Shown: one piece after another, positions 13,754 through 52,075 of the stretch
Numbering within the stretch: position 1 is the first letter of the stretch
Layout: every line of letters starts with the position of its first letter
Assembly: GCA_016214125.1 (NCBI GenBank)
Contig: JACRPC010000002.1
Span: forward strand, 1 to 64,000
Direction of reading: 5' to 3'
Source of the DNA: Rhodospirillales bacterium
GTDB taxonomy: Bacteria; Pseudomonadota; Alphaproteobacteria; Rhodospirillales; WMHbin7
Length of the DNA: 64,000 nucleotides
The notes under the pieces: generated by a model
What the model was told of the DNA's origin: nothing
The model's database searches: none
The model's input: only the letters and a program-made list of their open reading frames with translations
Position numbers and translations under genes: made by a program

Positions 13754-13786
13754 GGCTTCAATCTTTCCGTCCCGCTTCGGCTTTTG

Positions 13787-15815: not shown

Positions 15816-15826
15816 AGGAACTCCCG

Positions 15827-16576
15827 ATGGAAAGCCCCTACCGCATCCTGATCGTTGACGACGACCCCGAGATTTCCGGCTTGGTTGCCGATTTTCTGGC
15901 GCCCTATGGCTTCGTGGTGACCGCCGCCGCCGATGGCCGCGCCATGCGCGAGACGCTGGCGAATGGCGATATCGATCTGGTGATTCTTGATTTGATGCTG
16001 CCGGGCGAGGATGGCTTGGCGCTCTGTCGCTATCTGCGGCAAGCGACGGCTCTTCCCATCATCATGCTGACCGCGATGGGGGAGGAAACCGATCGTGTCG
16101 TCGGCCTGGAAATGGGCGCCGACGATTACATCCCTAAGCCGTTCAGCGCTCGGGAACTTCTGGCGCGCATCAAGGCGGTCCTGCGTCGGGGCGCGCTCCG
16201 CGAGGCGGGAACCGGGACCGACCCTTCGGGAAAGCCAGAGCCGACGCGGGAAATTCTCGGATTCTCCGGCTGGCGCTTGGAAACCGGGCGCCGCCAGTTG
16301 CGCGCTCCCGACGGCGTGTTGGTGGAATTGACCAGCGGGGAATTCGATCTGCTTTACGCCTTCCTCAAGAACCCACAGCGCGTTCTTAACCGGGACCAAC
16401 TCCTCGATCTGGCGCGAGGCCGCGTTTCTGGGCCGCTCGATCGAACCATCGACGTTCAGGTCGGACGCCTTCGCCGAAAGCTGGAAATCGATCCCAAAAA
16501 GCCCGAAATCCTCAAGACCGTGCGTGGCGGCGGTTACATGCTGGCGACTGAAGTCCGCCAAGTGTCATCCTCATGA
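15827..16576 (+). CDS. OmpR/PhoB-family response regulator
   Basis: 249 residues. The receiver domain (1-~120) has acidic pocket D11-D13, phospho-acceptor D55 in VILDLMLPG, T82 and K104 (YIPKPFS). The C-terminal winged helix ends DRTIDVQVGRLRRKLE...ILKTVRGGGYML, the standard trans-reg C signature. It is co-transcribed with the kinase and is the natural candidate to bind the repeated TGTAA boxes at 6063 and 14301. A ~25-residue linker (residues ~128-150) is slightly longer than in CusR. Confidence 0.92.
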   Translation: MESPYRILIVDDDPEISGLVADFLAPYGFVVTAAADGRAMRETLANGDIDLVILDLMLPGEDGLALCRYLRQATALPIIMLTAMGEETDRVVGLEMGADDYIPKPFSARELLARIKAVLRRGALREAGTGTDPSGKPEPTREILGFSGWRLETGRRQLRAPDGVLVELTSGEFDLLYAFLKNPQRVLNRDQLLDLARGRVSGPLDRTIDVQVGRLRRKLEIDPKKPEILKTVRGGGYMLATEVRQVSSS

Positions 16577-27702: not shown

Positions 27703-28590
27703 CTAGGCATCCTCCATGAAGAGGCCGACGACGGCGGCCAAGGCGTCGCTGCCTTCGAGTTCGACGATCCGACAGAATTGCTGAAGGACGAAATTGTCCT
27801 TGGGCAAGAGCTGGTAGCCGCGCCAGGGCGTGCCCAGCACGGTGTCGAAGCCCAAGGGCATCGCCACGGTGAGGAAGGCGCATTCGAGCTGGTGCTTGAG
27901 ATCGGACCCGTCGAGGGCCTTATCCGGCAGATGCTGGGAAAGGTTGGAAAGGCCGCCCATGATGTGGACGCCCTTCAGCGCCGGATCGGCGCCGACCAGA
28001 CGAATGCCGTCGAGCGCCATCTTGATCAGACCCTCGGCGTCGGCGGCCAAGGTGGCCACCGAGACGTCGATCAGGAAATCGTCGTTGCTCATCTGCGGAT
28101 AGGCGCGCCGGAGCCGTTCGACCATGCTGCAGGCCGAGCCATGCACCTCGGCGCCGGTCCGGTTGGGCGTGACGCCCGCATCGCCCAGCCGCTCCGACGA
28201 CATCAGCACCACCTTGCAGGGCCGCACCGCCAGCGCCTCGTGGAGCGCCCAGCGCGATTCGGCGATCGAATTGATGATCGGCTTTTGGCCTTTGGCCTTG
28301 GCGTCGTCGTAGGTTTCGAGCGCCCGCGTCAAAATGGCGGCGTCCGGACAATCGAGCGACAAGGGCAGATCGACGACCGCTTGGATGCGCCGAATCATCT
28401 CGATCAGAAAGGCGGGATCGGACAGCGCCTTGGTGCCGGCGTTGACGTTGAGGTAGCTGGCGCCGGCCTCGGTCTGACGCACCGCCAGGGCCTGGATGCC
28501 GGCGAAGTCGTCGTGGTCGAACAGCGCCTTGGTCGAGCGGAAGCCGGGATTGATGCGCTCGCCGATGATGCGAAGGCCGGGAATGGACAC
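27703..28590 (-). CDS. Methyltetrahydrofolate:corrinoid methyltransferase (MeTr/AcsE-like)
   Basis: 295 residues from the GTG at 28590, which has AGGGAG 8-10 bp upstream; a longer frame to 28731 would cover the divergent promoter. SIPGLRIIGERINPGFRSTK, ASYLNVNAGT, DLPLSLDCPDA and PIINSIAES are the pterin-binding barrel motifs of AcsE/MtgA-type methyltransferases. It exchanges methyl groups between a corrinoid protein and tetrahydrofolate. With the corrinoid protein at 37400 and UroD-type enzyme at 36274 it would be the second methyltransferase (MT II) of a demethylation pathway, feeding methyl groups to C1 metabolism. It is divergent from the importer. Confidence 0.88.
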   Translation of the reverse strand: MSIPGLRIIGERINPGFRSTKALFDHDDFAGIQALAVRQTEAGASYLNVNAGTKALSDPAFLIEMIRRIQAVVDLPLSLDCPDAAILTRALETYDDAKAKGQKPIINSIAESRWALHEALAVRPCKVVLMSSERLGDAGVTPNRTGAEVHGSACSMVERLRRAYPQMSNDDFLIDVSVATLAADAEGLIKMALDGIRLVGADPALKGVHIMGGLSNLSQHLPDKALDGSDLKHQLECAFLTVAMPLGFDTVLGTPWRGYQLLPKDNFVLQQFCRIVELEGSDALAAVVGLFMEDA

Positions 28591-28851
28591 GCGAGACTCC
28601 CTGTTGATGGGTGGTGGCGACGATGGCACGAGGCGAGGGCCGTGGCCAACCGCCGTCGGCACCTTCACGATAGGGCGCGTGCCCCAGTGATTCCAAAGAA
28701 AATCGGGCGCCCAATCAACGTTGACACGCAAACAAACATATAACTAATATATCACGCCAATCAAACGCCACAACGCGGAGCGATTCCAATTCTCTCACCG
28801 CTGCCGTCGTGAAGCGAACCGACGACAATAAAATCCTTCAGGGAGGAACAC
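28591..28851. other. Divergent promoter region of the demethylation cluster
   Basis: 261 bp between MeTr (minus) and the solute-binding protein (plus). It contains the promoter and operator-like motif described separately at 28721-28756, and a GGGAGG ribosome site just before 28852. No small gene is apparent. Confidence 0.6.
28721..28756 (+). promoter_or_regulatory. Sigma-70-type promoter with overlapping candidate GntR operator
   Basis: TTGACA at 28721-28726 and TAATAT at 28745-28750 are spaced 18 bp, a good consensus promoter ~100 bp before the binding-protein gene. CTAATATATCACG (28744-28756) overlaps the -10. A near match, CTAATATCCACG on the minus strand at 38098-38109, lies in the promoter of the corrinoid gene. 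A shared regulator, probably the GntR protein at 38148-38834, is inferred. Confidence 0.6.
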
Positions 28852-30129
28852 ATGGATCTCGGCAGACGTAAAGCGATCAAAACGATCGGCACGGCGGGCG
28901 TTGTTGCGGCCACCTTGCCCATTCTCGGCTTCCCGGCGATTGCCCAGAACCGTCCCTTGCGGGTCGGCATCATCGCTCCCAAAGCCGGCATCGCCGGCAC
29001 GATCGGCGAATGCGGTCTGCAGGGCACGCTGTTCGCGGTGGAGAAGATCAACGCCGCCGGCGGCATCGCCGGGCGCATGGTCGAGCTGGTGATCGAGGAA
29101 GAGACCAACCCCAAGGATTCGATCGAACGGTTGCGCAAGCTGGTCTTGCAAGACAAGGTCGATTGCGTGCAGGGCATCGTGTCGTCGGGCGTCAGCCTGG
29201 CCATGGGTCCGGCGGCCGAGGAGATGAAGGCGCTCACCATCTATTGGGACGGCACCACCCAGGACGGCGTCGACGAGACGATGGCCAAGCCGCGCTACGT
29301 CTTCCGCAGCACCGACAACGAGTGCGAGGCGGTGATGGCCTCGCTTCTGGTCGTCAAGCACTGGAAGGGCAAGTTCAAGACCATCGCCGGCATCAATCCC
29401 GACTATTCCTACGGCCGCAACAACTGGGCGGCCTTCCAGGCGCTGCTCAAGAAGTTTGGCATCGAATTCACCGTGGTCGCCGAGCAGTGGCCAAAGGTGG
29501 GCACGCTCGACCTCACCTCGCACGTCGCGGCCTTGAAGGCCGCCAAGCCGGACATGATCTTCTCGTCGCTCCTGTTCGCCGATCTGCCGGTGTTCATGCG
29601 CACCGCCCACTCGGCCGGTCTGATGGAGGGAACGCGCTTCGCCTTCCCGGCAGCCGGCTTCCAGCACACGGCGCTCAAGAAGGAGTTCACGCCGGAAGGC
29701 ATGATTTTCGGCCACAACACGCTCTATTTCGATCATCCGCAGGCCAACGCCTTGCAGAAGGAATTCGTGGCCTACTATCACAACAAGACCAAGGACTATC
29801 CGCACTGGGAGGCCGACCGCGCCTATTTCGCCATGCAGGCCTACAAAGCCGGCGTCGAAAAGGCCCAGAAGGCGAAGAACGCCTGGCCCTCCATCGAGGA
29901 GATCGCCGCCGCCATGGAAGGCGTCAAGGTCGATTCGTTGGGCGGCCCCGGGCGGATGCGCGAGGACCACATCGCCGAGCAGACCTTCTATCAGGGCATC
30001 ACCACCCACAAGAACAAGTATGATTTCCCGACGCTCGGCGTGGTCGACACCATGTATTCCGATCAATTGCAAAAGCCGCCGGGCGCCAATTTCTGGAAAT
30101 GGATCGAGACCGCCCAAATCAAACTCTAG
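28852..30129 (+). CDS. ABC importer, periplasmic solute-binding protein (branched-chain/urea type)
   Basis: 425 residues. A signal region with RRK (GRRKAIKTIGTAGVVAATLP) suggests Tat or Sec export. The mature start RPLRVGIIAPKAGIAGTIGE and PDYSYGRNNWAAFQALLKKF are type I periplasmic-binding (LivJ/UrtA) features. It captures the substrate for the permeases at 30246-32092. In this cluster the ligand is presumably the methylated compound whose methyl group is removed. It is not obviously a leucine- or urea-specific binder. Confidence 0.88.
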   Translation: MDLGRRKAIKTIGTAGVVAATLPILGFPAIAQNRPLRVGIIAPKAGIAGTIGECGLQGTLFAVEKINAAGGIAGRMVELVIEEETNPKDSIERLRKLVLQDKVDCVQGIVSSGVSLAMGPAAEEMKALTIYWDGTTQDGVDETMAKPRYVFRSTDNECEAVMASLLVVKHWKGKFKTIAGINPDYSYGRNNWAAFQALLKKFGIEFTVVAEQWPKVGTLDLTSHVAALKAAKPDMIFSSLLFADLPVFMRTAHSAGLMEGTRFAFPAAGFQHTALKKEFTPEGMIFGHNTLYFDHPQANALQKEFVAYYHNKTKDYPHWEADRAYFAMQAYKAGVEKAQKAKNAWPSIEEIAAAMEGVKVDSLGGPGRMREDHIAEQTFYQGITTHKNKYDFPTLGVVDTMYSDQLQKPPGANFWKWIETAQIKL

Positions 30130-30177
30130 GGCGGGATCGGGGTCCATTTCTTGGTTGGCGTGTTGGCAATCGTGAAA

Positions 30178-30213
30178 GGCCGCGGCCGGACGCTTGAGCG
30201 TTCGGTCGCGGTC
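30178..30213 (+). other. Long RNA hairpin between binding-protein and permease genes
   Basis: A 16-bp stem (30178-30193 with 30098-independent partner 30198-30213, three G-U pairs) closes a TTGA tetraloop. No T-run follows, so it is not a standard terminator. Hairpins here often protect the upstream binding-protein mRNA and lower permease expression, giving the usual excess of binding protein. Confidence 0.65.
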
Positions 30214-30245
30214 GGTTGCCGGGGGGGCGAGGCGCAAAGGGGCCC

Positions 30246-31127
30246 ATGGCCGCGTTCATAAACATTCTGTTGGGCGGCGTCTTCCATGCGGCCGTGCTGT
30301 TCTTGGTCGCCGCCGGGCTGCAGATTGTCTTCGGCGTCCAGAAGATCGTCAATCTGGCCTGCGGCTCGTTCTATGCGCTGGGCGCCTATTTCGGCGTCAC
30401 CACGGTGACCTGGGCCTTGAAGGCCGGGCTGCCGCCCTTTCTGTTCCTGCCAGTCTTGATCGCGTCGGGCGTCGTTCTGGCGGTGATCGGTCCGGTGATC
30501 GAGCGGCTGCTCCGCACCGTCTATGACCGCGACGAAAGCTTCCAACTCTTGCTCACCTTCGCCCTGGTGCTGATGTTCCAGGACATCATGCGCTATTTCT
30601 GGGGCGCCAATCCCCAGCAATTGGGCAATCTGGTGATGGTCTATGGCAAGGTCGGCGCCGGCGGCGTCGATCTGCCGGTCTACAACGTCTTGGTGATCGC
30701 CGGCAGCATCGCGATTGCGCTTATCCTGGGCGGCTTTCTCCAACGCACCCGCTACGGACGCATCCTGCGCGCCACCGCCGAGAACCGGGCGATGACCGAG
30801 GCGCTGGGCGTCGACGTCCGGCGCATCAACGTCGTCGTCTTCACCCTGGGCACCGTGTTGGGCACGGTGGGCGGTGCCTTCGTGGTGCCGACCAGCGCCG
30901 CCTCGCTCGACATGGCGGTCGAGCTGGTCGTCGAGGCCTTCGCCGTGGTGGTGATCGGCGGCTTGGGCAGCATGCGCGGCGCCTTGGCCGGCGCTTTGGT
31001 GGTGGGCCTGATGCGGGCGGCGGCGATCGCGCTTTACGCCGAGTTGGAATTGCTGTCGATCTATCTGGTCGTCATCCTGGTGCTCATCCTGCGCCCATCG
31101 GGCCTGTTCGGGAAACCGGCGGAATGA
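30246..31127 (+). CDS. ABC importer permease, LivH type
   Basis: 293 residues from the ATG at 30246; a TTG at 30216 is possible but lies in the hairpin flank. Multiple transmembrane helices are evident, with the LivH hallmark AAGLQIVFGVQKIVNLACGS near the N-terminus and the cytoplasmic loop RATAENRAMTEALGVDVRRI that contacts the ATPases. It pairs with the LivM-type permease, whose gene overlaps by four bases. Confidence 0.9.
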   Translation: MAAFINILLGGVFHAAVLFLVAAGLQIVFGVQKIVNLACGSFYALGAYFGVTTVTWALKAGLPPFLFLPVLIASGVVLAVIGPVIERLLRTVYDRDESFQLLLTFALVLMFQDIMRYFWGANPQQLGNLVMVYGKVGAGGVDLPVYNVLVIAGSIAIALILGGFLQRTRYGRILRATAENRAMTEALGVDVRRINVVVFTLGTVLGTVGGAFVVPTSAASLDMAVELVVEAFAVVVIGGLGSMRGALAGALVVGLMRAAAIALYAELELLSIYLVVILVLILRPSGLFGKPAE

Positions 31128-32092
31128 CGCCGCGCCTGACGACCCTGGTGATCGTTGGCCTGGTGGCCCTGGTGGGCAGCGCGCCCCTTTGGGCGACGCC
31201 TTACCACATTACCTTGATGATCCCGGCCATGGCCTATGGCATCGCGCTCTTGGGCCTCAACCTGCTGTTCGGCTATGCCGGGCTGCTGTCCTTCGGTCAC
31301 GCCATGTTCGTCGGCATCGGCGCCTACACCACGGCGGTCTTCACCAGCAAGCTGGGCATCCGCAGTTTCGAGCTGGTGCTGGTGGCGTCGGCGGTTGCGG
31401 CGGCCCTTTTCGCCATACCGATCGGCCTCTTGACCGTGCGCTATGTCCGCATCTTCTTCGGCATGCTGACGCTCGCCTTCGGCATGCTCTTCCATTCCTT
31501 CCTGTTCAAGTTCTATCACCTGACCGGCGGCGATTCCGGCATGCGGGTGGTGCGCCCGACGCTCTTGGGCCAAGACACCCAAGAGCTGGACAAGATTGCC
31601 TTCCTGACTGGCCCCTTCTTTCTGTACGTGCTGGCGCTTCTGGTGATCCTGGGTCTGGTGATGCTGCGCATCGTCCATTCGCCCTTCGGCCTGCACTTGA
31701 AGGCGCTGCGCGAAAACGCCCGCAAGGCCGAATATCTGGGCGTCACCGTGCGCCGCTTCCGCTTGGCCGCCTTCGTCATCTCGGCCATCTATTGTTCGAT
31801 CGGCGGCGTGATCCTGGCGGTGCCGACCGGCATCGCCGATCCGGAACTGGCCTATTGGACGCATTCGGGCAATCTGATCTTCATGACGCTCTTGGGCGGC
31901 TTCACCAACTTCTTCGGGCCGATCCTGGGCGCCTTCTCCTTTATCTTGCTGCAAGACCAATTGATGTCGGCCACCCAATATTGGCGCTTCTTCCTGGGCG
32001 TCGTGCTGGCCCTGATCGTCATTCTGTTCCCGCGCGGTCTGATGGGCATCTTGGAATCCCTGATGGCGCGCTTTTCGCGGGGCCGTTCATGA
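31124..32092 (+). CDS. ABC importer permease, LivM type
   Basis: 322 residues with about ten predicted helices. IALLGLNLLFGYAGLLSFGH is the LivM family signature and LKALRENARKAEYLGVTVRR is the ATPase-coupling loop. It begins in the stop of the previous permease and ends in the start of the ATPase gene (ATGA overlap), so the importer genes are translationally coupled. Confidence 0.9.
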   Translation: MTPRLTTLVIVGLVALVGSAPLWATPYHITLMIPAMAYGIALLGLNLLFGYAGLLSFGHAMFVGIGAYTTAVFTSKLGIRSFELVLVASAVAAALFAIPIGLLTVRYVRIFFGMLTLAFGMLFHSFLFKFYHLTGGDSGMRVVRPTLLGQDTQELDKIAFLTGPFFLYVLALLVILGLVMLRIVHSPFGLHLKALRENARKAEYLGVTVRRFRLAAFVISAIYCSIGGVILAVPTGIADPELAYWTHSGNLIFMTLLGGFTNFFGPILGAFSFILLQDQLMSATQYWRFFLGVVLALIVILFPRGLMGILESLMARFSRGRS

Positions 32093-32925
32093 ACGGCCCC
32101 GGCGAGCCCACCAAGCGGACCGAGGACGGGCGCCTGCTCCGCCAGAGCGCCGATTCAGGAACGGTGATGATCGAGACCAGAGGGGTGAGCAAGCATTACG
32201 GCCCCTTCGTGGCCTTGGCCGACATCACGATTACCCTGAAGGCGGGCGAAATGGTGTCGATCGTCGGCCCGAACGGCGCCGGCAAGACCACGCTGGTCAA
32301 CGTTCTCACCGGGTTGCTGCGAACGACGACCGGCCAGGTGCTCTTCAAAGGGCACGACATCGCCGGCATCGGTCCGGTTCGCCTGGCCCGGCTCGGCATG
32401 GCGCGCAGCTTCCAGCTTGTGCACATCTTCCCGGAGCTGACGGTCGAGGAAACCATCGCGGTGGCGGAGATCGCCCGCGCCGGCAAGGCGGGCCGGCTGT
32501 GGGCTTCGGTCCGGGGCGACGACGCCATTCACGCCCGGGTGCGCGAGGTGGCGGCGATCTTCGGCCTCGACACCAAGCTTGACCGGCCGGCGCGCGTGCT
32601 TTCACAAGGCGACAAGAAGTTGCTCGACATCGCCAGCGCCTTTGCGCTCGCCCCCGAAGTGATCCTGCTCGACGAACCGACCAGCGGCATCTCGACCGGC
32701 GACAAGCACGGCATCATGAAAACCCTGGTCGAGGCCGCCCGAACCGCCAACGTCAAGGCGATCATCCTGGTCGAGCACGACATGGATCTGGTGGCCGAAT
32801 ATTCCGACCGCATCATCGCGCTTCAAGAAGGCCGCATTCTGGCCGACCTTCCGCCCACCCAATTCTTTGCCGATCCGGCGATCGTCGCCGCCGTGGTCGG
32901 CATGAAACCGGTCCGCCATGCTTGA
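32089..32925 (+). CDS. ABC importer ATPase, LivG type
   Basis: 278 residues. Walker A VGPNGAGKT, signature LSQGDKKLL, Walker B EVILLDEPTSG and H-loop VEHDMD are all present. LSQGD instead of LSGGQ is normal for LivG/UrtD-type subunits. The ~26 residues before MIETRGVSKHYG are atypical, and a GTG/ATG start at 32164-32167 is a reasonable alternative. Confidence 0.9.
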   Translation: MNGPGEPTKRTEDGRLLRQSADSGTVMIETRGVSKHYGPFVALADITITLKAGEMVSIVGPNGAGKTTLVNVLTGLLRTTTGQVLFKGHDIAGIGPVRLARLGMARSFQLVHIFPELTVEETIAVAEIARAGKAGRLWASVRGDDAIHARVREVAAIFGLDTKLDRPARVLSQGDKKLLDIASAFALAPEVILLDEPTSGISTGDKHGIMKTLVEAARTANVKAIILVEHDMDLVAEYSDRIIALQEGRILADLPPTQFFADPAIVAAVVGMKPVRHA

Positions 32926-33625
32926 TCTCGGCGCCCTGTCGGTCGACATCCAGAACAGCCATATCCTGAGGGGCGTCACCCTTAAGGTCGGCCAAGGCGA
33001 GCTGGTCTGCCTGATCGGGCGCAACGGCGCCGGCAAGACCACCACCTTGCGCAGCATCATGGGCTATCGCCGTCCCAACGCCGGCACCATCGCCTTCCTG
33101 GGCCGATCGCTTACCGATCTGCCCACCCACGCCATCGTGCGCCTGGGCATCGGCTACGCGCCCGAGGAAAGCGAGGTCTATGGCGATCTCACGGTGGCCG
33201 AAAACATCGAGCTGCCGACCTGGACCTGCCCCGAGGGCCGCCCGGCGGCGGAGCGCATCGCGCTGGCCTACCAGATCTTTCCCAAACTGCGCCAATACAT
33301 GAAGCGCGGCGGCACCCAGCTTTCCGGGGGCGAGCGCAAGATGGTGTCGATCGCTCGGGCCCTGGCGCTCGATCCCAAGCTTCTGCTGCTCGACGAGCCC
33401 TTCGAGGGCCTATCCCCGGCGATCATCCCCACCATCAGCGACGGCATCGCCTCGATCCGCAAATTGGGCCAAAGCGTGCTGATGGCGGAATCGAACGTGC
33501 ATCACATTCCCGACGACGCCGACCGGCTTTATGTGATGGAGCGGGGCGAGATCATCTTCGCCGGCACGCCCGGCGAGGCCAAGCGCGATCCGGCGGTGAT
33601 GCGGGTGATCAGCGGCGCGGCTTAA
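32918..33625 (+). CDS. ABC importer ATPase, LivF type
   Basis: 235 residues with Walker A IGRNGAGKTTTLRSIMG, signature LSGGERKMVSIARAL, Walker B LLLLDEPFEGLSP; His-loop position is ESNVHH, with Asn before the histidines. It starts eight bases inside the LivG-type gene. Its TAA shares the palindrome TTAA (33622-33625) with the stop of the convergent DUF1638 gene. Confidence 0.9.
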   Translation: MLDLGALSVDIQNSHILRGVTLKVGQGELVCLIGRNGAGKTTTLRSIMGYRRPNAGTIAFLGRSLTDLPTHAIVRLGIGYAPEESEVYGDLTVAENIELPTWTCPEGRPAAERIALAYQIFPKLRQYMKRGGTQLSGGERKMVSIARALALDPKLLLLDEPFEGLSPAIIPTISDGIASIRKLGQSVLMAESNVHHIPDDADRLYVMERGEIIFAGTPGEAKRDPAVMRVISGAA

Positions 33626-34356
33626 GAGTTTTCCTTGCGCGCCATCGGCTGCGGCGGGGCGTCGCCGGTCCAATGGAACATCGCGGCCGTCACCTCGCTG
33701 CCCGGGGCCAGAACCAGGAAGGCGTCGCTGGGGGCTTGCGCCACATCGGCCGGCATGGCGACCAGGGCGTCGATCAATTCGGTGGTGCCGATCGTTTCCT
33801 CATAGACCATGCCGAAGCGCTCGTGGCAGAAGCGGGCGATCTCCATCGCTGCCGGGCGCACGGACTCGATCTCCTCTTGGGAAAAGCCGACCAGGCAAAG
33901 CTTGCGGTAATGCTTGTATTTCATCTCGACCAGATAATCGGCGGTCTCCTCGTCGAACTGGGCGACGTAGTCACGATAATCGGTGAGCGGCTCGTCCTTG
34001 GCGTCGATCCAACCCTTGGTCAGGTAATAGGTGTTGGGGTTGGCGAAAAAGCGCTGCACATAGCGCTGATGCGACCCCAGAAAGATCGCCACGCAATCGT
34101 GGGTGCGCGGAATGACCAGGGTGTGCGGGCCCGATTTCAATCCGACCAGCCCGTTGCCGCACAGCCCGTAGCCGATTAGCACCGTGCTGGGCGTGGCAAG
34201 CGCGTCCAGGCGCTCCTGCAGCGCCGCCGCCATCTTTTTGGGCGTGTTGTGCAGGCTGATGTCCATCCAATCGACCGGCATCGATTTGGGCAGGCGCGAG
34301 CCGAGAAGGTCGTTCAGGACCGTGCAGGCCAGGGCAACGAGCGGCCGTTGGCTCAT
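33622..34356 (-). CDS. DUF1638 protein of the corrinoid cluster
   Basis: 244 residues. PSTVLIGYGLCGNGLVGLKS, LVIPRTHDCVAIFLGSHQRY and FANPNTYYLTKGWID are characteristic of DUF1638, a family repeatedly found beside corrinoid methyltransferases with no defined biochemical role. Conserved Cys and His residues (GLCGNG, RTHDC) could bind a metal. It overlaps the RACo-like gene by four bases (34353-34356) and is the last gene of the right-hand operon. Confidence 0.85.
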   Translation of the reverse strand: MSQRPLVALACTVLNDLLGSRLPKSMPVDWMDISLHNTPKKMAAALQERLDALATPSTVLIGYGLCGNGLVGLKSGPHTLVIPRTHDCVAIFLGSHQRYVQRFFANPNTYYLTKGWIDAKDEPLTDYRDYVAQFDEETADYLVEMKYKHYRKLCLVGFSQEEIESVRPAAMEIARFCHERFGMVYEETIGTTELIDALVAMPADVAQAPSDAFLVLAPGSEVTAAMFHWTGDAPPQPMARKENS

Positions 34357-36242
34357 GGGCCTCTCGTGGCTTGGGGCGGCGCCAGCGGCTCGGGCGCCAG
34401 CTCGGTGTGGGCGATGAACAGCTCGTGGAAATCGGCCCGGCCCGACAATTCCAACACCGTCATCCGCTTGGCCAGGGAAAGCGCCCGGTTCCGCTGATGG
34501 CGGTTGAAGAGGGCCAGGCGGGCGCCGTCGCCGGCGGCGTTGCCGATCGAGTGGATGCGCGCCACCGGCACGCGGGGCACCAGGCCGATCTTCAGGATAT
34601 CCTCGGGCTCGAGATGGTTGCCGAAGGTTCCGGCCAGATGGATGCGGTCGATCGTACTGGCGCCGCAGACGCCCATGAGAATTTCGATGCCCGAACGCAG
34701 CGAGGATTTGCCGAGTTGCACGCCGCGCACGTCCTTCTGGGTGAGCACGATGTCGCGCCCGGTCTGCGAGCGCGAAGCCGGCGCCAGCACGATGTCTTCG
34801 GCCCGCCCGCTCGGCCCGGCGCGCAAGGCCGGATGACGCCCGGGCTCGGCCAGGCTGCCTTCCGGGGTGATCAACCCGGCGCCGATCAGGGCGGCGACGC
34901 TGGAAATGACGCCCGAGCCGCACAGCCCGATGGGGCGCGGCTCCTTGTCGCGGCCTGGGTCGGGAATGGTCGCCAGGCGAAGCGCGCCGGTCGGGTCGAC
35001 CCAGACCCGCTCGATGGCGCCCGGTTGGGCGCGCACCCCGCAGCGAATATGGGCGCCTTCATAGACCGGGCCGGTGGCGCATGACGTCGCCATCAGGGCG
35101 CCGTCATGGGCCAGCACGACCTCGCCGTTGGTGCCGACATCGATCAGAAGCTGGGTGCCGCGATAGAAATCGCGCCCGCGGGTGAGAACGGCGGCCAGGA
35201 TGTCGCCGCCGATATAGCCCGACAGCATGGGAAAGACGAACAGGCGGGCGCGCGGCGCGATGGCCAGACCGAGCGACTGGGCTTCCGCCTCGACGCCCTC
35301 CGACCAAACCGGCAGATAGGGACCGCGCCCCAGCGGCTCGGGATTGATGCCCAACAGGATGTGCTGCATGGTCGGGTTGCCGACCAGAACCGCATCGACG
35401 ATGTCGTGGGGCTCGACGCCGGTTTCGGCGCACATATCCCCCGTCAACTGGTTCACGGCTTCGACGAGCGCGCCCTGCATCGCCCCAAGGGCCGCGATGT
35501 CCTTCTGGATGTGGGTCATGCGCGAGATGACATCCTCGCCGAACATGGCCTGGGGGTTGCCCGCCGCCCGCGAGGCCAAGATCGCCCCTTCCAGCAAATC
35601 GCAAAGAAACACCACGATCGAGGTGGTGCCAATATCGATCGCCAGACCAAAAAGGCGTTCATGCCGACCGGGGCGCACTTGGATGATCGTCCGCTCGCGG
35701 TACAGCGTGGCGGTGACCGTCTGCGCCGCGTCAAAGGAAGGCTGGCGGGAAAAATCGGCGATCACCGCCGCTCCCAGGGCGATCCGCCGCCGGCCGCTTG
35801 TCCGCATCACCGCGTCCTTGACGCGTTCGGCCAAGGCGCGGGGCGGCGGGGCGTTCGGGCCGTCCACGTCGATCGCGATGCGGGTGGCCAAGGGCCTTGC
35901 GGCGATCGGCAGGTGGGTGAAGGGTTTGCGCGGCGCGCTCTTGACCGCCTCGCTTTCCGGCGGCACCGACAGCGTCACCGCGCCCAGGATCTCGCACTGG
36001 CAGGCCAGGCGGTAATGGCGGTCCTCGCCCTCGGGCAGCAGGCCTTCGCGCTCGAGCAAGGTGGGCGGGTTGACCGCCCTACGCTCGGCCGAGGCCAGCG
36101 TCACCAGGCAACTGCCGCAGGTGCCGCGCCCGCCGCACACCGATTTGATGCCGACCCCGGCCTTCCAGGCGGCGGTCAGGGCCGTTTCGCCGGCCCGGAC
36201 CTCGACCGTCCGCTCGTCGGGCAGGAAGGTGACCTTGGGCAT
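34353..36242 (-). CDS. RACo-like reductive activator of corrinoid protein (2Fe-2S/ASKHA)
   Basis: 629 residues. The N-terminal ferredoxin domain has C36-x5-C42-x2-C45 and C81 (SVCGGRGTCGSCLVTL, then LACQC), a [2Fe-2S] site. The large C-terminal part is the ASKHA/DUF4445 ATPase domain: LFGLAIDIGTTSIVVFLCDL and TQLLIDVGTNGEVVLAHDG. Such proteins use ATP to reduce inactive Co(II) corrinoid to Co(I). It is 31 bp past the UroD-type gene. The 2Fe-2S type is that of acetogenic/O-demethylase RACo, not the 4Fe-4S RamA of methanogens. Confidence 0.92.
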   Translation of the reverse strand: MPKVTFLPDERTVEVRAGETALTAAWKAGVGIKSVCGGRGTCGSCLVTLASAERRAVNPPTLLEREGLLPEGEDRHYRLACQCEILGAVTLSVPPESEAVKSAPRKPFTHLPIAARPLATRIAIDVDGPNAPPPRALAERVKDAVMRTSGRRRIALGAAVIADFSRQPSFDAAQTVTATLYRERTIIQVRPGRHERLFGLAIDIGTTSIVVFLCDLLEGAILASRAAGNPQAMFGEDVISRMTHIQKDIAALGAMQGALVEAVNQLTGDMCAETGVEPHDIVDAVLVGNPTMQHILLGINPEPLGRGPYLPVWSEGVEAEAQSLGLAIAPRARLFVFPMLSGYIGGDILAAVLTRGRDFYRGTQLLIDVGTNGEVVLAHDGALMATSCATGPVYEGAHIRCGVRAQPGAIERVWVDPTGALRLATIPDPGRDKEPRPIGLCGSGVISSVAALIGAGLITPEGSLAEPGRHPALRAGPSGRAEDIVLAPASRSQTGRDIVLTQKDVRGVQLGKSSLRSGIEILMGVCGASTIDRIHLAGTFGNHLEPEDILKIGLVPRVPVARIHSIGNAAGDGARLALFNRHQRNRALSLAKRMTVLELSGRADFHELFIAHTELAPEPLAPPQATRGP

Positions 36243-36273
36243 CGGACCGGCCGTCGGCGCCAGGACGGCCGGC

Positions 36274-37371
36274 TCAGCGGTAGGGCGCGTATTTCTTGAT
36301 CGCCCGCGACATCGCCCAGATGTTCTCGACCTTGCAATAGTCGGTGATGCTGTTGGCGCTGGAGATCATGTAGCCGCCGCCCTTGCCGACCTTCTCGATG
36401 CGGTCGCGCACTTCGGCCTCGACCTCGGCCTCGGTGCCGCGCGGCAGCGTGTAGTCGAGATCGATGTTGCCGACGATGCAGACCCGATCGCCATACTTGG
36501 CCTTCAGCGTGTTGATGTCCATCGCCGAGGGCTGGACCGGATGGATGGCGTCCATGCCCAGCGTCAACAGGCCGTCGAGCAGCGGGAAGAGATTGCCGTC
36601 GCTGTGGAAGATCCAGGGCTTCCTGATCTCGTCGGCCACCAGCTTCTGATAGGGCTTCATGAACTCTTCCCACATCTCGGTCGACACCCAGGGCATCTTG
36701 GTGTCGGCGTGGTCGTCGTTCACCCAGAAGAAGTCGAAATCGAGCTTGTTGAGATGCTGCACCACCCGCGCCGACCATTCCGAAAAGCGACGGTGGATTT
36801 CCTTCACCAGATCGGGATCGTCGTACATCAGGACCGAGAATTCCTCGAGCCCCATGCTCTCGAAGGTGCTGGCGCCGCCCAGCCGGATGCGTGCGTAGAC
36901 GGCGAAGTCCTCCTTGTATTTGGAAATCCACTCCGCCACCTGCTCGTAGCGCGCCGGATGGTCGGGATCGGGCAGGAAGCGGTCGAACAGCTCCAGCGAT
37001 TCGCGGCTGGTGAGCAGGCCTTTCTTGACGTAGGTGCGGCCGCTCACTGGATCGTGACCCATCTCGGCGATCCAGGGCGGCACGAAATCGAAGGTGATGC
37101 GGTTGGGGTAGTACCAGGCCTCCTTGCCGGTGGTGCCGGTGGTCTGGATCGATTGGCTGTCGCTGGCCGCCTTGCCGGCCGGGAAGTGATAGCCGAAGCC
37201 GTCCATGCCCAAGGCGCGGCACAGCTCGCCCGGCGTGTAATCGGTGCGGCCGCCCATCAGCTTCACCTGGATGACTTCCTCGACCTCGTTCTCGATCCAC
37301 GGCACCCGATCGGGCTGGCCGCGCTTCAGGGCGGTAAGGACGCGTTCGCGGGGGGTCATGCTCTTGGTCAT
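36274..37371 (-). CDS. UroD-type (MtaA/OdmB-like) methyltransferase
   Basis: 365 residues from MTKSMTPRERVL at 37371, with GAGG upstream. TPRERVLTALKRGQPDRVPW and the barrel segments KPWIFHSDGNLFPLLDGL and RVCIVGNIDLDYTL place it in the uroporphyrinogen-decarboxylase superfamily branch that transfers methyl groups to or from corrinoids, not in heme synthesis. The HSDG motif replaces the H-x-C zinc ligands of MtaA, so metal binding differs. It is probably MT I, which demethylates the imported substrate and methylates the corrinoid protein. No MttB- or MtaB-type enzyme is nearby. Confidence 0.85.
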   Translation of the reverse strand: MTKSMTPRERVLTALKRGQPDRVPWIENEVEEVIQVKLMGGRTDYTPGELCRALGMDGFGYHFPAGKAASDSQSIQTTGTTGKEAWYYPNRITFDFVPPWIAEMGHDPVSGRTYVKKGLLTSRESLELFDRFLPDPDHPARYEQVAEWISKYKEDFAVYARIRLGGASTFESMGLEEFSVLMYDDPDLVKEIHRRFSEWSARVVQHLNKLDFDFFWVNDDHADTKMPWVSTEMWEEFMKPYQKLVADEIRKPWIFHSDGNLFPLLDGLLTLGMDAIHPVQPSAMDINTLKAKYGDRVCIVGNIDLDYTLPRGTEAEVEAEVRDRIEKVGKGGGYMISSANSITDYCKVENIWAMSRAIKKYAPYR

Positions 37372-37399
37372 AGCTGCCTCGTCGGTCTGTTCGATGCGC

Positions 37400-38035
37400 T
37401 CAAGCGAGGCGCTGGTTGCAGGACTGGACGCAGACATAGGCGTCCTCGCCGAAGAAGTCGGCGCCGATCTCGTCGGCGAACTTCTGGCTCAAGGGCGCGC
37501 CGCCGACCCCGACCACCACCTTCGAGCGCAGCCCCCCCGCGTTGAGCAGCTCGATGGTGCGGCGCATGCTTTCCATGGTCAGCGTGATGAGCGCGCTCAT
37601 CAGCAGGAATTTGGGCGATTCCTTGGTCACCGCCTCGACGAATTTTTCCGGCTGGACATCGACGCCGAGATCGACCACCTCGTAGCCGGCGCCTTCCATC
37701 ATCATGCGCACGATGTTCTTGCCGATGTCGTGGAAATCGCCCTGCACGGTGCCGATCACCGCCTTGCCCTTCTTCTCGGCGGCGACGCCGATCAGATGCG
37801 GCTTGATCAAGGGGATGACCTCGGTCATGGCGCGGGCCGCGATCATCATCTGCGGCAGGAAGTATTCGCCGCTCGAATATTTCTGGCCGACGATGGCCAT
37901 CGCGGCCACCAAGGCGTCCTTCATGATCAGGCCGGCATCGGTGCCGGCGGCCAGCGCCTGGCGCACCGCCTCGGCGGCGTCGTTCTTCTTGCCGCGGATG
38001 ACAAAATCCTTAATGGCATCAATGTGTTGTGACAT
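37400..38035 (-). CDS. Corrinoid (B12-binding) methyl-carrier protein
   Basis: 211 residues from MSQHIDAIKDF at 38035. The N-terminal helical cap (to ~85) is followed by the B12 domain: GTVQGDFHDIGKNIV with lower Co ligand H102 in the DxHxxG motif, LLMSALITLTMESM, and GGAPLSQKFADEIGADFFG. This is an MtaC/MtbC/MtvC-type carrier that shuttles a methyl group between the UroD-type and MeTr enzymes. It is the first structural gene of the right-hand operon. Confidence 0.93.
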   Translation of the reverse strand: MSQHIDAIKDFVIRGKKNDAAEAVRQALAAGTDAGLIMKDALVAAMAIVGQKYSSGEYFLPQMMIAARAMTEVIPLIKPHLIGVAAEKKGKAVIGTVQGDFHDIGKNIVRMMMEGAGYEVVDLGVDVQPEKFVEAVTKESPKFLLMSALITLTMESMRRTIELLNAGGLRSKVVVGVGGAPLSQKFADEIGADFFGEDAYVCVQSCNQRLA

Positions 38036-38069
38036 CGCTTCCTCGCCCAAGGTTTCGCGTCGGGCGGTC

Positions 38070-38125
38070 TGATCTCCGCCCGTTCCCTGACATATTACGT
38101 GGATATTAGGAAGCCCGCAACGAAT
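38070..38125 (-). promoter_or_regulatory. Promoter of the corrinoid operon with operator-like motif
   Basis: On the minus strand TTGCGG and a second TAATAT are spaced 17 bp, ending ~55 bp before the corrinoid start. CTAATATCCACG lies in the spacer and resembles CTAATATATCACG in the binding-protein promoter at 28744. The paired motifs suggest common control by the neighbouring GntR regulator. Confidence 0.5.
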
Positions 38126-38147
38126 CCCGTGCGCCAAGGGCTGGGTT

Positions 38148-38834
38148 TCAGAACTCAGTCGAGACCGTGGTGCGGGTGAATTCCGCCATGAGATCGATTA
38201 GCCGATCCGAGGCCTTGGCGGCGGCCTCCTCGTCGCCCTGGGCGATGGCCTGGGCGACCTCGGCGTGGCGGATGGCGGTTTCCGGAAGATCGGCGGCCTG
38301 GCGGTAATGCAGATACCAGAAACGCCGCGACAGCGACTGCATGTTGAGAAGCGCCGTCGAGGCGAATTCGTTGCGCGCCGCCGCGGCGTTGAGATCGTTG
38401 AACTCACGATCGGCCTTGATGAAGGTGGCGTCGTCGTTCGTGCGGGCGCAGGCAAAGAAAATGTCGGCCAACTCGGCGAAACGCTGGCGTTCGGCGTCAG
38501 TGGCGCGCCGGGCGGCGCTGCGCGCGGTGTAGCGCTCAAGCTCCTTGCGCACCTCCAAAAGGCGCAACTGGCTCTTGACGTCGATTTCCGAAACGATCAC
38601 GCCCCGCCTTGGCAGAACGCGAACCAACTGCTCGCGCGCCAGACGCTGAAGCGCCTCGCGCACCGGCGTGCGTCCGATCCCCAGATCGTTGCCCAGCGAC
38701 GATTCGGACACCACGGTGCCCGGCCGCAGCTTCATGGTGACGATCATCTCCTCGATCCGGGCGTAGGCGATGTCGGTGAGCAGCCGTTCATCGGCGCCCA
38801 CGGTTTGGGATTTCGGATTTTTCTTGGGACGCAT
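38148..38834 (-). CDS. GntR-family (FadR/FCD) transcriptional regulator
   Basis: 228 residues from MRPKKNPKSQT at 38834. The winged helix LTDIAYARIEEMIVTMKLRPG...LGIGRTPVREALQRLAREQL is the GntR signature. The C-terminal helical FCD domain has acidic/His metal-ligand positions (ADREFNDLN, AIRHAEVAQAI) that bind small organic acids in relatives. It lies ~110 bp upstream of the corrinoid gene on the same strand and probably senses the cluster's substrate or product. Confidence 0.88.
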   Translation of the reverse strand: MRPKKNPKSQTVGADERLLTDIAYARIEEMIVTMKLRPGTVVSESSLGNDLGIGRTPVREALQRLAREQLVRVLPRRGVIVSEIDVKSQLRLLEVRKELERYTARSAARRATDAERQRFAELADIFFACARTNDDATFIKADREFNDLNAAAARNEFASTALLNMQSLSRRFWYLHYRQAADLPETAIRHAEVAQAIAQGDEEAAAKASDRLIDLMAEFTRTTVSTEF

Positions 38835-49614: not shown

Positions 49615-51363
49615 ATGTCGGGTTTGCGGCGCTTTCGTTATGGCGAGTTCGTGCGCGAGGTTGCCGGCAACCAGCGCCGGGTCAGCGCCAACCAGCTTTC
49701 CGCTCCCGCCGCCGGTCCCGCCGCCGCCGAGGAGACCATTCGGCTGCGCCCGATCGACGTCCATCGCCTGCTCACCCCCTATCTCGGGATACGGATGAAG
49801 GACCAGTTGCGCGCCGTGCTGCCGCTGGCCGCCTATCTCGTGCTCTTCCAGGTCATCATCCTGCGCCAGAATGTGAGCGAGGGCGGCCTGATCGCCGCCG
49901 GCATGGTGGCGGTGATGCTGGGCCTGATGCTGTTCATCGAGGGCCTGAAGCTGGGCATGATGCCGTTCGCCGAGCTGATCGGTCTTTATCTGCCCAAGCG
50001 CTCGCGTCGGCGGGTCGTTCTGTTGATCGCCTTCATCCTGGGCATCGGCGTCACCCTGGCCGAGCCGGCGGTCGGCGCGTTGCAGGCGGCCGGCTCGACG
50101 GTCGATCCCCGCCAGGCCCCCTATCTCTACGCGATGCTCAACGCCTGGTCGGGGGCGCTGGTGCTGGTGATCGGGGTCGGCGTCGGCCTGGCCGCCGTCC
50201 TGGGAACGATGCGCTTTCTCTATGGCTGGAGCCTGAAGCCGTTGATCATCGGCACGCTGCTGCCGGCCTTGGCCCTGACCGCCTACATGATGAACCGTCC
50301 CGATCTGGCGCCGGTGTTGGGTCTGGCCTGGGATTCGGGAGCGATCACCACTGGGCCGGTGACGGTGCCGATCGTTCTCGCCCTGGGGATCGGCATCACC
50401 GCCGCCGCCGGGCGCGACGATTCGGCGCTGTCGGGCTTCGGGGTGGTGACCTTGGCGTCGCTGATCCCGGTTCTGGGGGTGATGGTGCTGGCGCTGATCG
50501 TCTCGATGGTCAGCACGCCCGACGAGATCGTCGCTGCCGCCAGCGGCCTGTCGACGGCGGTGCCCGCTTGGTACGAGCAAAGCCCGGCGGTGGAAATCGT
50601 AAGCGGGCTGCGCGCCATCGTGCCCCTGGTCCTTTTTCTCTATGCGGTGCTGACCTTGCTGATCCGGGAAAAGGTGAGCCAGGCGAAGTTCGTCGTCACC
50701 GGCTTGGTCTTTTGTCTGGTCGGGATGATCGTCTTCAATCTTGGCCTCACCTACGGTCTGGCCAAGTTGGGCGGCCAGACCGGCGCCGTCACGCCGGCGG
50801 CCTTCACCGCCACCGCCGCCGTTCAAGGGTCACCTCTTTACGCCACCGGCCTCGGCATGGCCCTGGTGTTGATTTTCGCCTGGGCCCTGGGGTTCGGCGC
50901 CACCATCGCCGAACCGGCCTTGAACGCCATGGGGCTCACGGTCGAGAACCTGACCAACGGCGCCCTGCCCCGGCGCCTGCTGATCGGGGCGGTGTCGTTG
51001 GGCGTCGGCATCGGCATTGCCCTTGGGGTAGTCAAGATCGTCTTCAACGTTCCGCTGGCGCCGATGCTGATCGGTTTCTACGCCGTGGCGTTGGGGCTGA
51101 GCCTTATTTCCAGCGAGGAATTCGTCAACGTCGCCTGGGACAGCGCCGGCGTCACCACCGGCCCGGTCACCGTGCCGCTGGTTCTGGCGATGGGGCTTGG
51201 CTTCGGCGAGGCCATTCGCGTCGTCGAGGGCTTCGGCATTCTTGCCATGGCGTCGATTTGCCCGATCCTCACCGTTCTCGTGGTCGGGCTGTGGATACGG
51301 TACCAGCAGCGGCGCCAGGAAAGCGCCAAGCAGAAAGAGGAATTGGAGGCGGTTCAGTCATGA
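49615..51363 (+). CDS. DUF1538 family membrane protein, tandem domains
   Basis: 582 residues from the ATG at 49615, preceded by GGGGGAGGAAGG. Two homologous halves each have several helices and the repeated motif AGVTTGPVTVPLVLAMGLGF / GAITTGPVTVPIVLALGIGI, the DUF1538 duplication. A ~75-residue cytoplasmic N-terminus comes first. The family is an uncharacterised transporter-like group often paired with PII-like proteins. Here two such genes follow with four-base overlaps, suggesting PII-controlled transport. Confidence 0.88.
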   Translation: MSGLRRFRYGEFVREVAGNQRRVSANQLSAPAAGPAAAEETIRLRPIDVHRLLTPYLGIRMKDQLRAVLPLAAYLVLFQVIILRQNVSEGGLIAAGMVAVMLGLMLFIEGLKLGMMPFAELIGLYLPKRSRRRVVLLIAFILGIGVTLAEPAVGALQAAGSTVDPRQAPYLYAMLNAWSGALVLVIGVGVGLAAVLGTMRFLYGWSLKPLIIGTLLPALALTAYMMNRPDLAPVLGLAWDSGAITTGPVTVPIVLALGIGITAAAGRDDSALSGFGVVTLASLIPVLGVMVLALIVSMVSTPDEIVAAASGLSTAVPAWYEQSPAVEIVSGLRAIVPLVLFLYAVLTLLIREKVSQAKFVVTGLVFCLVGMIVFNLGLTYGLAKLGGQTGAVTPAAFTATAAVQGSPLYATGLGMALVLIFAWALGFGATIAEPALNAMGLTVENLTNGALPRRLLIGAVSLGVGIGIALGVVKIVFNVPLAPMLIGFYAVALGLSLISSEEFVNVAWDSAGVTTGPVTVPLVLAMGLGFGEAIRVVEGFGILAMASICPILTVLVVGLWIRYQQRRQESAKQKEELEAVQS

Positions 51364-51731
51364 CCACCCGCGACATCGTCGTCCTTACCGACGTGGCCCT
51401 GATCACCTGCATCGTGCAGCGCGAAATGGCCGACGCCATCATCGAGGCGGCGCGCGACGCCGGCGCCAAGGGCGCCACCGTCCATTTCGCCAAGGGCACC
51501 GGGGTGCGCGAAAGGCTGGGCGTACTCGGCATCGCCGTCAACGTCGAAAAGGAAGTGATCAACATCGTCGTCTCGACCGAGCAGGTCGACGACGTTTTCG
51601 AGCGCATGTATCTGGCCGGCAAGCTCGACACGCCCGGCATGGGCATCATGTACGTCACCCGCCTGGAAAAGGCGGCGACCCACATTCCGCTCGATGTCCT
51701 GCGCCGCCTGGAAGGGGGAGGGCGCAAGTGA
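51360..51731 (+). CDS. PII-like regulatory protein, first copy
   Basis: 123 residues. DVALITCIVQREMADAIIEA is a PII-like N-terminal strand/helix, and LAGKLDTPGMGIMYVTRLEK corresponds to the PII C-terminal region (GxxGDGKIFV...). The T-loop is short and lacks the uridylylated Tyr51 of GlnB. Such proteins sense nucleotides and bind a partner; the DUF1538 transporter encoded upstream with a 4-base overlap is the obvious candidate. Confidence 0.85.
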   Translation: MTTRDIVVLTDVALITCIVQREMADAIIEAARDAGAKGATVHFAKGTGVRERLGVLGIAVNVEKEVINIVVSTEQVDDVFERMYLAGKLDTPGMGIMYVTRLEKAATHIPLDVLRRLEGGGRK

Positions 51732-52075
51732 CCCTCGACATGGCCTCGGGTTCCTGGCGCCTGATCACCGGCTTTCTGCCGGTCGCCAAGGCCTCGGTCG
51801 TGGTTCAGGCGTTGCGCCGCGAGTTGGGCATCACCACCGCCATCCAATCGACGGCGCGTGGCATCGGCACCGCCAAGCACCGGGTCCTCGGCGTGTGGGA
51901 CGAGATCGCCATGGTCAGCGTGACGATTCCGGCCGAAAAGGCCGACGAGGTCTTCGCCTTCATCTTCGAAAGAGGCGAGATCGACCGTCCCAAGGGCGGG
52001 CTCCTGATCCAGCAGGTGGTCGATCACCAGACGGCTTACGTTCTGCCCGACTTGCCGGCGGAATCGGACGGCTGA
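51728..52075 (+). CDS. PII-like regulatory protein, second copy
   Basis: 115 residues from a GTG overlapping the previous stop (GTGA); ATG at 51740 is the alternative. SWRLITGFLPVAKASVVVQALRR and FAFIFERGEIDRPKGGLLIQ are PII-like, and it diverges strongly from the first copy, so the two may form heteromers or read different ligands. Its 3' end overlaps the convergent EamA gene by 40 bases. Confidence 0.82.
   Translation: MTLDMASGSWRLITGFLPVAKASVVVQALRRELGITTAIQSTARGIGTAKHRVLGVWDEIAMVSVTIPAEKADEVFAFIFERGEIDRPKGGLLIQQVVDHQTAYVLPDLPAESDG

Follow-up and report, generated by a model that had tools for sequence, protein, structure and literature searches.

A corrinoid-dependent methyl-transfer gene cluster with a linked Liv-type importer in a Rhodospirillales genome: a candidate O-demethylation system for small carboxylic acids

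Results

Gene cluster and its parts

The window analysed here, the whole stretch of 64,000 nucleotides at the start of contig JACRPC010000002.1 of a Rhodospirillales bacterium, carries a group of eleven genes at positions 27703-38834 (Table 1). A preliminary description had taken this group for a complete corrinoid-dependent demethylation cluster with a dedicated importer. By family searches and gene calls all the genes named there were recovered at the same positions and strands and their families were confirmed, with MeTr as the weakest case; the gene families support a four-part demethylation system with an importer of its own. The corrinoid protein, the methyltransferase to tetrahydrofolate (MT2) and the ATP-dependent activase are all encoded in the cluster of the UroD-type protein, the MT2 call being below the curated cut-offs. 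From the protein families we infer the chain of methyl transfer that is set out in Discussion.

Table 1. Genes and candidate operator sites of the cluster. Percentages are identities to the proteins of the related loci L103 and L104 described in the text.
Feature	Position	Strand	Remarks
MeTr/MtgD-like methyl-corrinoid:tetrahydrofolate methyltransferase	27703..28590	-	GTG start or upstream TTG
Candidate operator TGATATATTAG	28744..28754	-	divergent MeTr/LivJ intergenic region; exact match to TGAYATATTAS
LivJ-type periplasmic binding protein	28852..30129	+	Peripla_BP_6 198.7 bits; 44-46% to L103 binding protein
LivH-type permease	30246..31127	+	BPD_transp_2 101.6 bits; 56% to L103
LivM-type permease	31124..32092	+	BPD_transp_2 120.1 bits; 53% to L103
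LivG-type ATPase	32089..32925	+	ABC_tran 104.8 bits; 53% to L103
LivF-type ATPase	32918..33625	+	ABC_tran 109.4 bits; 60% to L103
DUF1638 accessory protein	33622..34356	-	DUF1638 124.9 bits; 67% to L104
RACo/RamA-type 2Fe-2S reductive activase of corrinoid protein	34353..36242	-	63% to L104
UroD-type substrate:corrinoid methyltransferase (MT1), proposed O-demethylase	36274..37371	-	URO-D 80.8 bits (cut-off 23.9)
Corrinoid carrier protein (MtgC/MtbC-like)	37400..38035	-	B12-binding 91.4, B12-binding_2 64.7 bits; 78% to L104
Candidate operator TGACATATTAC	38088..38098	+	upstream of corrinoid-UroD-RACo-DUF1638 unit; exact match to TGAYATATTAS
GntR/FCD transcriptional regulator	38148..38834	-	GntR 60.7, FCD 73 bits; 67% to L104 regulator

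The MeTr protein scored 110.8 bits with PRK07535 (cut-off 259) and 24.8 bits with Pterin_bind (cut-off 25.5), in both cases below the curated cut-off, but shared 54% identity with the MeTr-like counterpart in another corrinoid cluster, on contig C24 of the same genome. Judged by these scores, its assignment is the weakest among the cluster genes. The activase resulted in 237.7, 170 and 39.7 bits with RACo_C_ter, Raco_middle and Fer2, respectively. The DxHxxG motif was present in the corrinoid protein (GDFHDIGKN), and the UroD-type gene has an alternative start at 37437.

The importer has the five-gene LivJHMGF architecture. The LivJ, H, M and F types, the four subunits searched, scored below the NCBIfam cut-offs of the listed Liv and urea-transporter models, and the top PDB relative of the binding protein was 3i45 (E 1.7e-23). 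The Liv block (28852-33625) and the MeTr gene diverge from one intergenic region, and the Liv block and the corrinoid unit are convergent.

DUF1638 was found as a single copy in the own genome. Two cysteines of the protein (C66 in YGLC and C88 in DC) were kept in 11 of 11 sequences, and a metal or redox role is possible for them. The predicted model of DUF1638 (pLDDT 88.8) gave a top solved match of Z 6.6 over 102 residues, a level common in such searches; the comparison with solved structures produced racemase-like and periplasmic-binding-like rows, none of them convincing.

Distribution of the UroD clade

Much of the gene set recurred in other genomes, a check which the preliminary description had proposed; the grouping is hence not a chance one. 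All the loci with UroD matches above 550 bits were taken as the clade, resulting in 21 loci from 19 genomes. The UroD proteins of the 20 non-window loci were 59-86% identical to the window's, and orthologs were detected in Moorella stamsii and Desulfotomaculum copahuensis. In the tree, a branch supported at 97/99 separated 20 clade rows (L086, which is close to L060, was excluded) from the other rows, and the window protein was grouped with those of L061 and L104 (100/99). Long branches among the outer rows were flagged by the tree program.

Five of the 385 genomes of the same class had any UroD relative at E 1e-10, and five of the 100 genomes of the same order had one at E 1e-30; in both samples close relatives were found in the own genome only. 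A genome-collection scan resulted in 16 UroD loci, seven of them at 62-74% identity. Strong matches (>550 bits) were detected in 6 of 348 genomes in the phylum of D. copahuensis, 6 of 345 in the phylum of a Syntrophobacteraceae metagenome-assembled genome (MAG), 2 of 300 in the order of a Burkholderiaceae MAG and 1 of 251 in the phylum of a Chloroflexi MAG, frequencies which are not unbiased because the four groups were picked for a known carrier member. The names of these groups were taken from the named genome at the group centre. Since close kin were present in genomes of another order and absent from the sampled relatives, the scattered distribution suggests that the gene was transferred horizontally. 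The plasmid search gave one weak UroD match (28.3% over 58%).

Fold and metal site of the UroD-type protein

The AlphaFold2 (AF2) model of the UroD-type protein (pLDDT 89.5) matched HemE-type structures, i.e. uroporphyrinogen decarboxylases, with Z 27.1-29.5 and the methylcobalamin:coenzyme M methyltransferase 4ay7 with Z 28.3 (rmsd 3.3 over 319 residues). The predicted URO-D fold does not by itself reveal the function. The positions of HxC...C in 4ay7 correspond to His256-x-Asp258 and Asn340 of the window protein, which were invariant in 23 of 23 aligned sequences, 19 of them clade members. The His-Cys-Cys zinc ligands of the SCMT, MtaA, MtbA and Mlp S-methyltransferases are therefore not found in the window protein. 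In the superfamily, S-methyltransferases are described to carry His-Cys-Cys, whereas in O-methyltransferases one or both Cys are replaced with carboxylates or non-coordinating residues (PMC10418091; this and the other PubMed Central (PMC) articles are cited for parts of their text). Because HxD...N takes the place of HxC...C and falls within this O-type pattern, the UroD-type protein was read as a putative O-demethylase.

The enzyme is very unlikely to be an S- or Se-methyltransferase of the MtaA, MtbA or Mlp kind, or a haloalkane dehalogenase, although it belongs to the URO-D superfamily and the clade profile had its best match among solved structures in 4ay7 (E 6.5e-15). The replacement of both Cys positions speaks against the S- and Se-methyltransferases; it has no bearing against haloalkanes, with which the metal site alone would be compatible. 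Both alternatives are opposed by the importers, which imply a solute requiring transport and not a gas or a volatile thiol.

UroD relatives of 34% identity from Blautia sp. An249 (L035) and Lactonifactor longoviformis (L037) adjoin TRAP-like genes and, by eye, a LarA-looking protein; HxDGN is also present in these relatives.

Importers and partner genes of the clade

An importer permease was located near the UroD gene at 20 of the 21 clade loci: 11 were TRAP, 6 major facilitator superfamily (MFS) and 3 Liv (the window, L103 and contig C42 of the own genome). The nearest permease was 1-5 genes off and on the same strand at 19 of the 20 non-window loci (11 TRAP, 6 MFS, 2 Liv), the exception being L030, a 3.8-kb contig that ends just past the UroD match. 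The co-occurrence of importer and methyltransferase genes, on which the preliminary description had staked its reading, thus held, with permeases at most 6 genes from UroD and a related Liv importer at L103. DctM was confirmed by Pfam at 11 of 11 TRAP loci; MFS was assigned by families at L027, L029, L031 and L032, and L085 and L087 were labelled via 75-76% identity. Near-duplicate rows (L060/L086 and the related L031/L085) lower the number of independent loci. The partner genes were the corrinoid protein at 15 of 21 loci, DUF1638 at 11 (and one short partial match), which links this family to the clade, MeTr at 10 and RACo at 5, counts which are limited by several short contigs.

At L103, in a genome of the Desulfobacterota group, genes for glcD-like, glcD/E-like and glcF-like proteins, LivJ, H, M, G and F, the corrinoid protein, UroD, MeTr and DUF1638 follow on one strand. 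The Liv proteins of L103 were 44-60% identical to the window's, and this locus is the closest architectural match to the window cluster. L104 belongs to a genome of the same order as the Burkholderiaceae MAG. It carries the regulator, corrinoid protein, RACo and DUF1638 at the identities in Table 1 and a UroD protein of 83% identity, together with a MeTr of a different lineage (34%), a methylenetetrahydrofolate reductase (MTHFR) homologue, formate-tetrahydrofolate ligase and TRAP, a gene set which fits with oxidation or use of methyl-tetrahydrofolate.

The one-strand run of L087 contains MeTr, DUF1638, UroD, the corrinoid protein, MFS, an acetolactate-synthase/glyoxylate-carboligase-like protein and an isomerase-like TIM barrel, and also a lactate/glycolate-oxidase-type FeS protein, a split transketolase, a sugar-acid kinase (SBD_N/NBD_C) and an FAD oxidase fragment. 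Near the UroD gene of L032 (D. copahuensis) a lactate-type MFS (420 bits, cut-off 320), a glycerate kinase (449.1 bits, cut-off 168.45) and a CdaR-like regulator were detected, and at L088 a D-2-hydroxyacid-dehydrogenase-like gene (276.3 bits, below cut-off) lies beside TRAP.

The kinase, the xylose-isomerase-like TIM barrel and the split transketolase in the one run of L087 would also agree with a sugar acid or tetronate as the O-methylated substrate instead of a two-carbon acid, and TRAP importers can transport sugar acids. Such a substrate is quite unlikely: it is indicated at a single locus only, and no uronate or tetronate pathway genes were recognised at other loci, which were mostly read by eye without family searches.

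At L033, L100, L101 and L102 the clade gene has additional UroD-type and corrinoid genes as neighbours. The second UroD-type protein, of about 400 aa, belongs to another branch (by the tree at L033, L100 and L101, and at L102 by sequence). Together with an MtaA-like protein, which was scored for L102, and the extra corrinoid proteins, it looks as if several methyl groups were handled at these four loci.

Shared motif in the control regions

The 11-mer TGAYATATTAS was derived by comparing eight intergenic pieces, with both sites of the window and one of L104 among them. Exact matches in the window were found at just 28744-28754 and 38088-38098, with a single-mismatch site at 17127, outside the cluster. 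Dinucleotide shuffles contained on average 0.19 motif matches and 0 of 100 reached the window's three, which is an optimistic figure as the sites had been used in motif finding. The exact motif occurred in 6 of 118 loci; three of these (L002, L016 and L105) duplicate the window and a fourth, L099, has an overlap with L104, resulting in two non-window exact sites. The first, at 8491-8501 of L104, precedes the corrinoid-UroD genes. The second, at 6736-6746 of L061, which was outside the motif discovery, is upstream of a minus-strand run with TRAP, the corrinoid protein and UroD. The palindromic TGATATATCA at 2958-2969 of L104, not used in motif finding, stands before a gene run with the TRAP importer.

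The motif in both control regions suggests that the two strands are jointly controlled by the candidate operator. As no exact match was found at the remaining clade loci, such control would be confined to proteobacterial members of the clade. The TNGTN(2-4)ACNA operator pattern gave one match, of doubtful form, in the eight intergenic pieces.

Related genes in the own genome

The own genome (3,986,285 bases in 54 contigs, 98.94% complete) contained two RACo genes and seven URO-D matches. One was HemE-like (399.8 bits, on C28); the remaining six were located in the window, on C42 and C24 and one each on C9, C10 and C28. The window cluster is thus not the sole UroD/corrinoid system of the genome. 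The idea that the UroD-type gene is a HemE duplicate was ruled out by the separate HemE-like gene.

A second UroD/corrinoid/RACo/MeTr set on C24 (L011:1-13570) is accompanied by an MTHFR-DUF5981 protein and an amidohydrolase, with Liv-type permease and ATPase genes some kilobases away. In the comparison with CdmB the UroD of C24 reached E 4.2e-34, and the window UroD E 1.3e-5 (by phmmer). The UroD paralog of C42 (L008:4258-13814), 67% identical to the window's, lies near a separate Liv importer which is about 25% identical to that of the window. 4-Hydroxy-2-oxovalerate aldolase, acetaldehyde dehydrogenase (DmpF/DmpG-type), an old-yellow-enzyme-type reductase and short-chain dehydrogenases/reductases surround it. 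The paralog had no own corrinoid protein on its 16-kb contig and may borrow corrinoid machinery encoded elsewhere.

On C10 (L010:8380-13130) a UroD-type gene is flanked on both sides by Liv-type binding protein genes. No permease was recognised in the 20 kb covered, and IclR-type regulators and a molybdopterin oxidoreductase adjoin the gene.

A run of glcD/E/F-like genes with malate synthase G was also present. The glcD match was 508.3 bits (cut-off 567.9) and the glcD family was found in 11 of 14 control genomes; as a glycolate route, this cluster is permissive only.

The genome content bears on the possibility that the cluster belongs to a methionine synthase or to a system for demethylating glycine betaine, of the kind described for Phaeobacter and Ruegeria. 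The top family of the corrinoid protein was MtgC_2 (191.7 bits, below the cut-off of 370). In the parts of the articles cited, methionine synthesis and the demethylation of glycine betaine in these genera involve MtgC and MtgD together with a RamA-like protein and DUF1638 (PMC5764234, PMC12478193), with methionine rescue in Phaeobacter inhibens (PMC5764234) and both functions served by MtgC and MtgD in R. pomeroyi (PMC12478193). Such a role is very unlikely for the window cluster. A split methionine synthase goes with the lack of a full MetH, whereas C54 of the own genome encodes a complete 1155-aa MetH (homocysteine, pterin, B12 and activation domains) with MetF adjacent; a second PF02574 frame, of 336 aa, is on C10. 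The clade is accompanied by organic-acid-type importers. A Pfam search of ten cluster proteins gave no MttB-type (pfam06253, as in MtgB) or homocysteine methyltransferase domain, the genome beyond them not being searched for the MttB type. Because no MttB-type domain was found in these proteins and two clade operons contain glcD/glcF-like genes, a sign of a hydroxy acid, a betaine, one of the substrates suggested in the preliminary description, is unlikely.

Other features of the window

The genes at 49615-52075 encode a DUF1538 protein and, next in order, a P-II-like protein and another small one, possibly a P-II-regulated transporter. Two RND-type efflux pumps, adaptor-like proteins and a two-component-like pair were read by eye at 1238-16576, perhaps for metal efflux.

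Discussion

Proposed function

The cluster is probably an importer-coupled O-demethylation system for a small carboxylic acid, and would act as a substrate-inducible module of import and demethylation. A small O-methylated carboxylic acid would be taken up by the Liv-type ATP-binding cassette (ABC) importer and its methoxy group offered by the UroD-type enzyme to Co(I) of the corrinoid protein, producing CH3-Co(III) and the free hydroxy acid. MeTr would hand the methyl group to tetrahydrofolate, and RACo, perhaps aided by DUF1638, would re-reduce accidentally oxidised Co(II). This chain from Co(I) to tetrahydrofolate with RACo repair was modelled on the Mto and Cdm systems as described in parts of PMC8630106 and PMC13222342. 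The divergent MeTr/Liv promoters and the corrinoid-UroD-RACo-DUF1638 operon are probably governed by the GntR/FCD protein through TGAYATATTAS.

The most likely substrate class is an O-methyl 2-hydroxy acid. A small 2-hydroxy acid as the product is indicated by the glcD/glcF-like genes of L103 and L087, the lactate-type MFS, glycerate kinase and CdaR-like regulator of L032 and the D-2-hydroxyacid-dehydrogenase-like gene of L088. Methoxyacetate is the simplest substrate yielding such an acid, and methoxyacetate with glycolate as the product is tentatively proposed from the neighbours at a few loci. Fermentation of methoxyacetate by Acetobacterium strains, with glycolate and acetate as the products, was reportedly described by Schuppert and Schink in 1990 (cited in PMC6011938). 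In the own genome, glycolate could be converted to malate through the glcDEF-like and malate synthase G cluster.

Several observations weigh against this proposal. The window importer is on the opposite strand from the UroD gene and 6 genes away, and the importer adjacency counts stand without a background rate for comparison. The glcD/glcF-like genes were found at just 2 of the 20 non-window loci and the glycerate kinase at one. At L103 the glcD/E/F-like scores were all below cut-off and the FeS protein scored higher with the fumarate reductase subunit TfrB (172.9) than with GlcF (103); the FeS protein of L087 scored higher with LdhH (L-lactate dehydrogenase, 291) than with GlcF (160.4), and the FAD oxidase there is a 106-aa fragment at the end of the contig stretch. 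In view of these scores, the 2-hydroxy acid could be lactate-like and not glycolate. The carboligase of L087 reached 531.4 bits as acetolactate synthase (cut-off 538.35) compared with 528.9 bits as glyoxylate carboligase (cut-off 791), and retains the Glu of VRHEQ, which true glyoxylate carboligases are not known to have. Since 4-hydroxy-2-oxovalerate aldolase and acetaldehyde dehydrogenase are neighbours of the C42 paralog, the clade may also hold several specificities.

The remaining points of this kind are shared with the main rival explanation, that the enzyme O-demethylates a methoxylated aromatic acid such as a lignin-type methoxybenzoate, as MtvB, OdmB and MtoB do. Three MFS neighbours matched best to aromatic acid/H+ symport (225-286 bits, cut-off 418.55), and one of these shares 75-76% identity with a further two. 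A 2-oxopent-4-enoate-hydratase-like gene was detected at L089 (238.9 bits, cut-off 408.8), and the enzymes near the C42 paralog are those of the catechol meta-cleavage lower pathway. Some PDB relatives of the window binding protein, such as 4ey3, are aromatic-acid binders. A UroD-type MT1 with MFS neighbours is also the published Mto layout, with MFS transporters beside the Mto systems (PMC8630106, in part). An aromatic substrate is nevertheless unlikely: the window UroD is distant from CdmB, a relative of MtvB, OdmB, VdmB and MtoB to which the C24 enzyme is nearer, and the glcD/glcF-like, lactate-type MFS and glycerate kinase neighbours would be unexpected. No ring-cleavage gene was recognised in the window gene calls, which were read by eye without a family search.

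Trigonelline (N-methylnicotinate) was also considered as a substrate, via the aromatic-symporter-like MFS and 3i45, which may hold nicotinate; it was rejected because an O-methyl acid agrees better with the glycolate- or lactate-type neighbours.

Corrinoid O-demethylases are best known for aromatic ethers in anaerobes. As a tentative proposal, the UroD-type enzymes of the clade might be the first candidates with known genes for corrinoid-dependent O-demethylation of aliphatic methoxy acids (methoxyacetate to glycolate), moved between anaerobes and proteobacteria with an importer suited to the host (TRAP, MFS or Liv) and controlled in the proteobacterial branch by GntR/FCD through the conserved TGAYATATTAS. 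The clade and its linked organic-acid-type importers offer a well-delimited set of genes to which the demethylation of aliphatic ethers might be assigned. This conversion is recorded for Acetobacterium, but no enzyme gene for it was found in the literature searched. The orthologs in M. stamsii and D. copahuensis make the reading testable.

Comparison with known systems

The kind of system is already known. In the open-licence PMC literature searched, mostly titles and abstract openings, no description was found of the clade with its linked importers, of its candidate substrate, of a methoxyacetate-demethylation gene or of a Liv importer in such a cluster. A UroD-type substrate methyltransferase, which the preliminary description had counted as part of a new-looking combination, is not new in itself, since MtvB, OdmB, VdmB, MtoB and CdmB are already placed in the UroD superfamily in the cited part of PMC13222342.

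The Mtv, Odm, Vdm and Mto systems of acetogens and methanogens share with the window cluster a URO-D-type MT1, a corrinoid protein, a MeTr-type MT2 and an ATP-dependent activase. Unlike them, the window cluster and its clade have DUF1638, the HxD...N metal site and TRAP or Liv importers, and the substrate is deduced from neighbouring genes. Their sequences were compared through the relative CdmB alone, with weak similarity. The Cdm chloromethane system of Acetobacterium dehalogenans likewise combines a URO-D fold MT1, a corrinoid protein and a MeTr-type MT2; the window UroD is distant from CdmB, and the cluster adds the importer and DUF1638.

MtgBCD/MtgE of Ruegeria pomeroyi and the split MetH of Phaeobacter inhibens resemble the cluster in the MtgC-like corrinoid protein, the pterin-binding MtgD-like protein, the RamA-like activase and DUF1638, for which a part in B12 reactivation was suggested in Phaeobacter, the authors giving no specific proposal in the cited part of PMC5764234. 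In contrast, the window has a UroD-type MT1 and not the MttB-type MtgB, a complete MetH in its genome, and a Liv importer and not a BCCT-type one. The type 1 mlp clusters of Kountz and Balskus have URO-D superfamily methyltransferases, a corrinoid protein and a Ram-type activase in common with the window, but are related to S-methyltransferases and differ in the metal-site residues, and DUF1638 is absent from the main text (PMC10418091).

Induced branched-chain ABC transporter genes have been assigned to amino-acid uptake (PMC8359953, in part), and the LivJHMGF importers of branched-chain amino acids have the same five-gene architecture as the window importer. In contrast to these, the LivJ, H, M and F types of the window are below the cut-offs, and the closest relative seen is the importer of L103, which stands beside the same methyltransferase.

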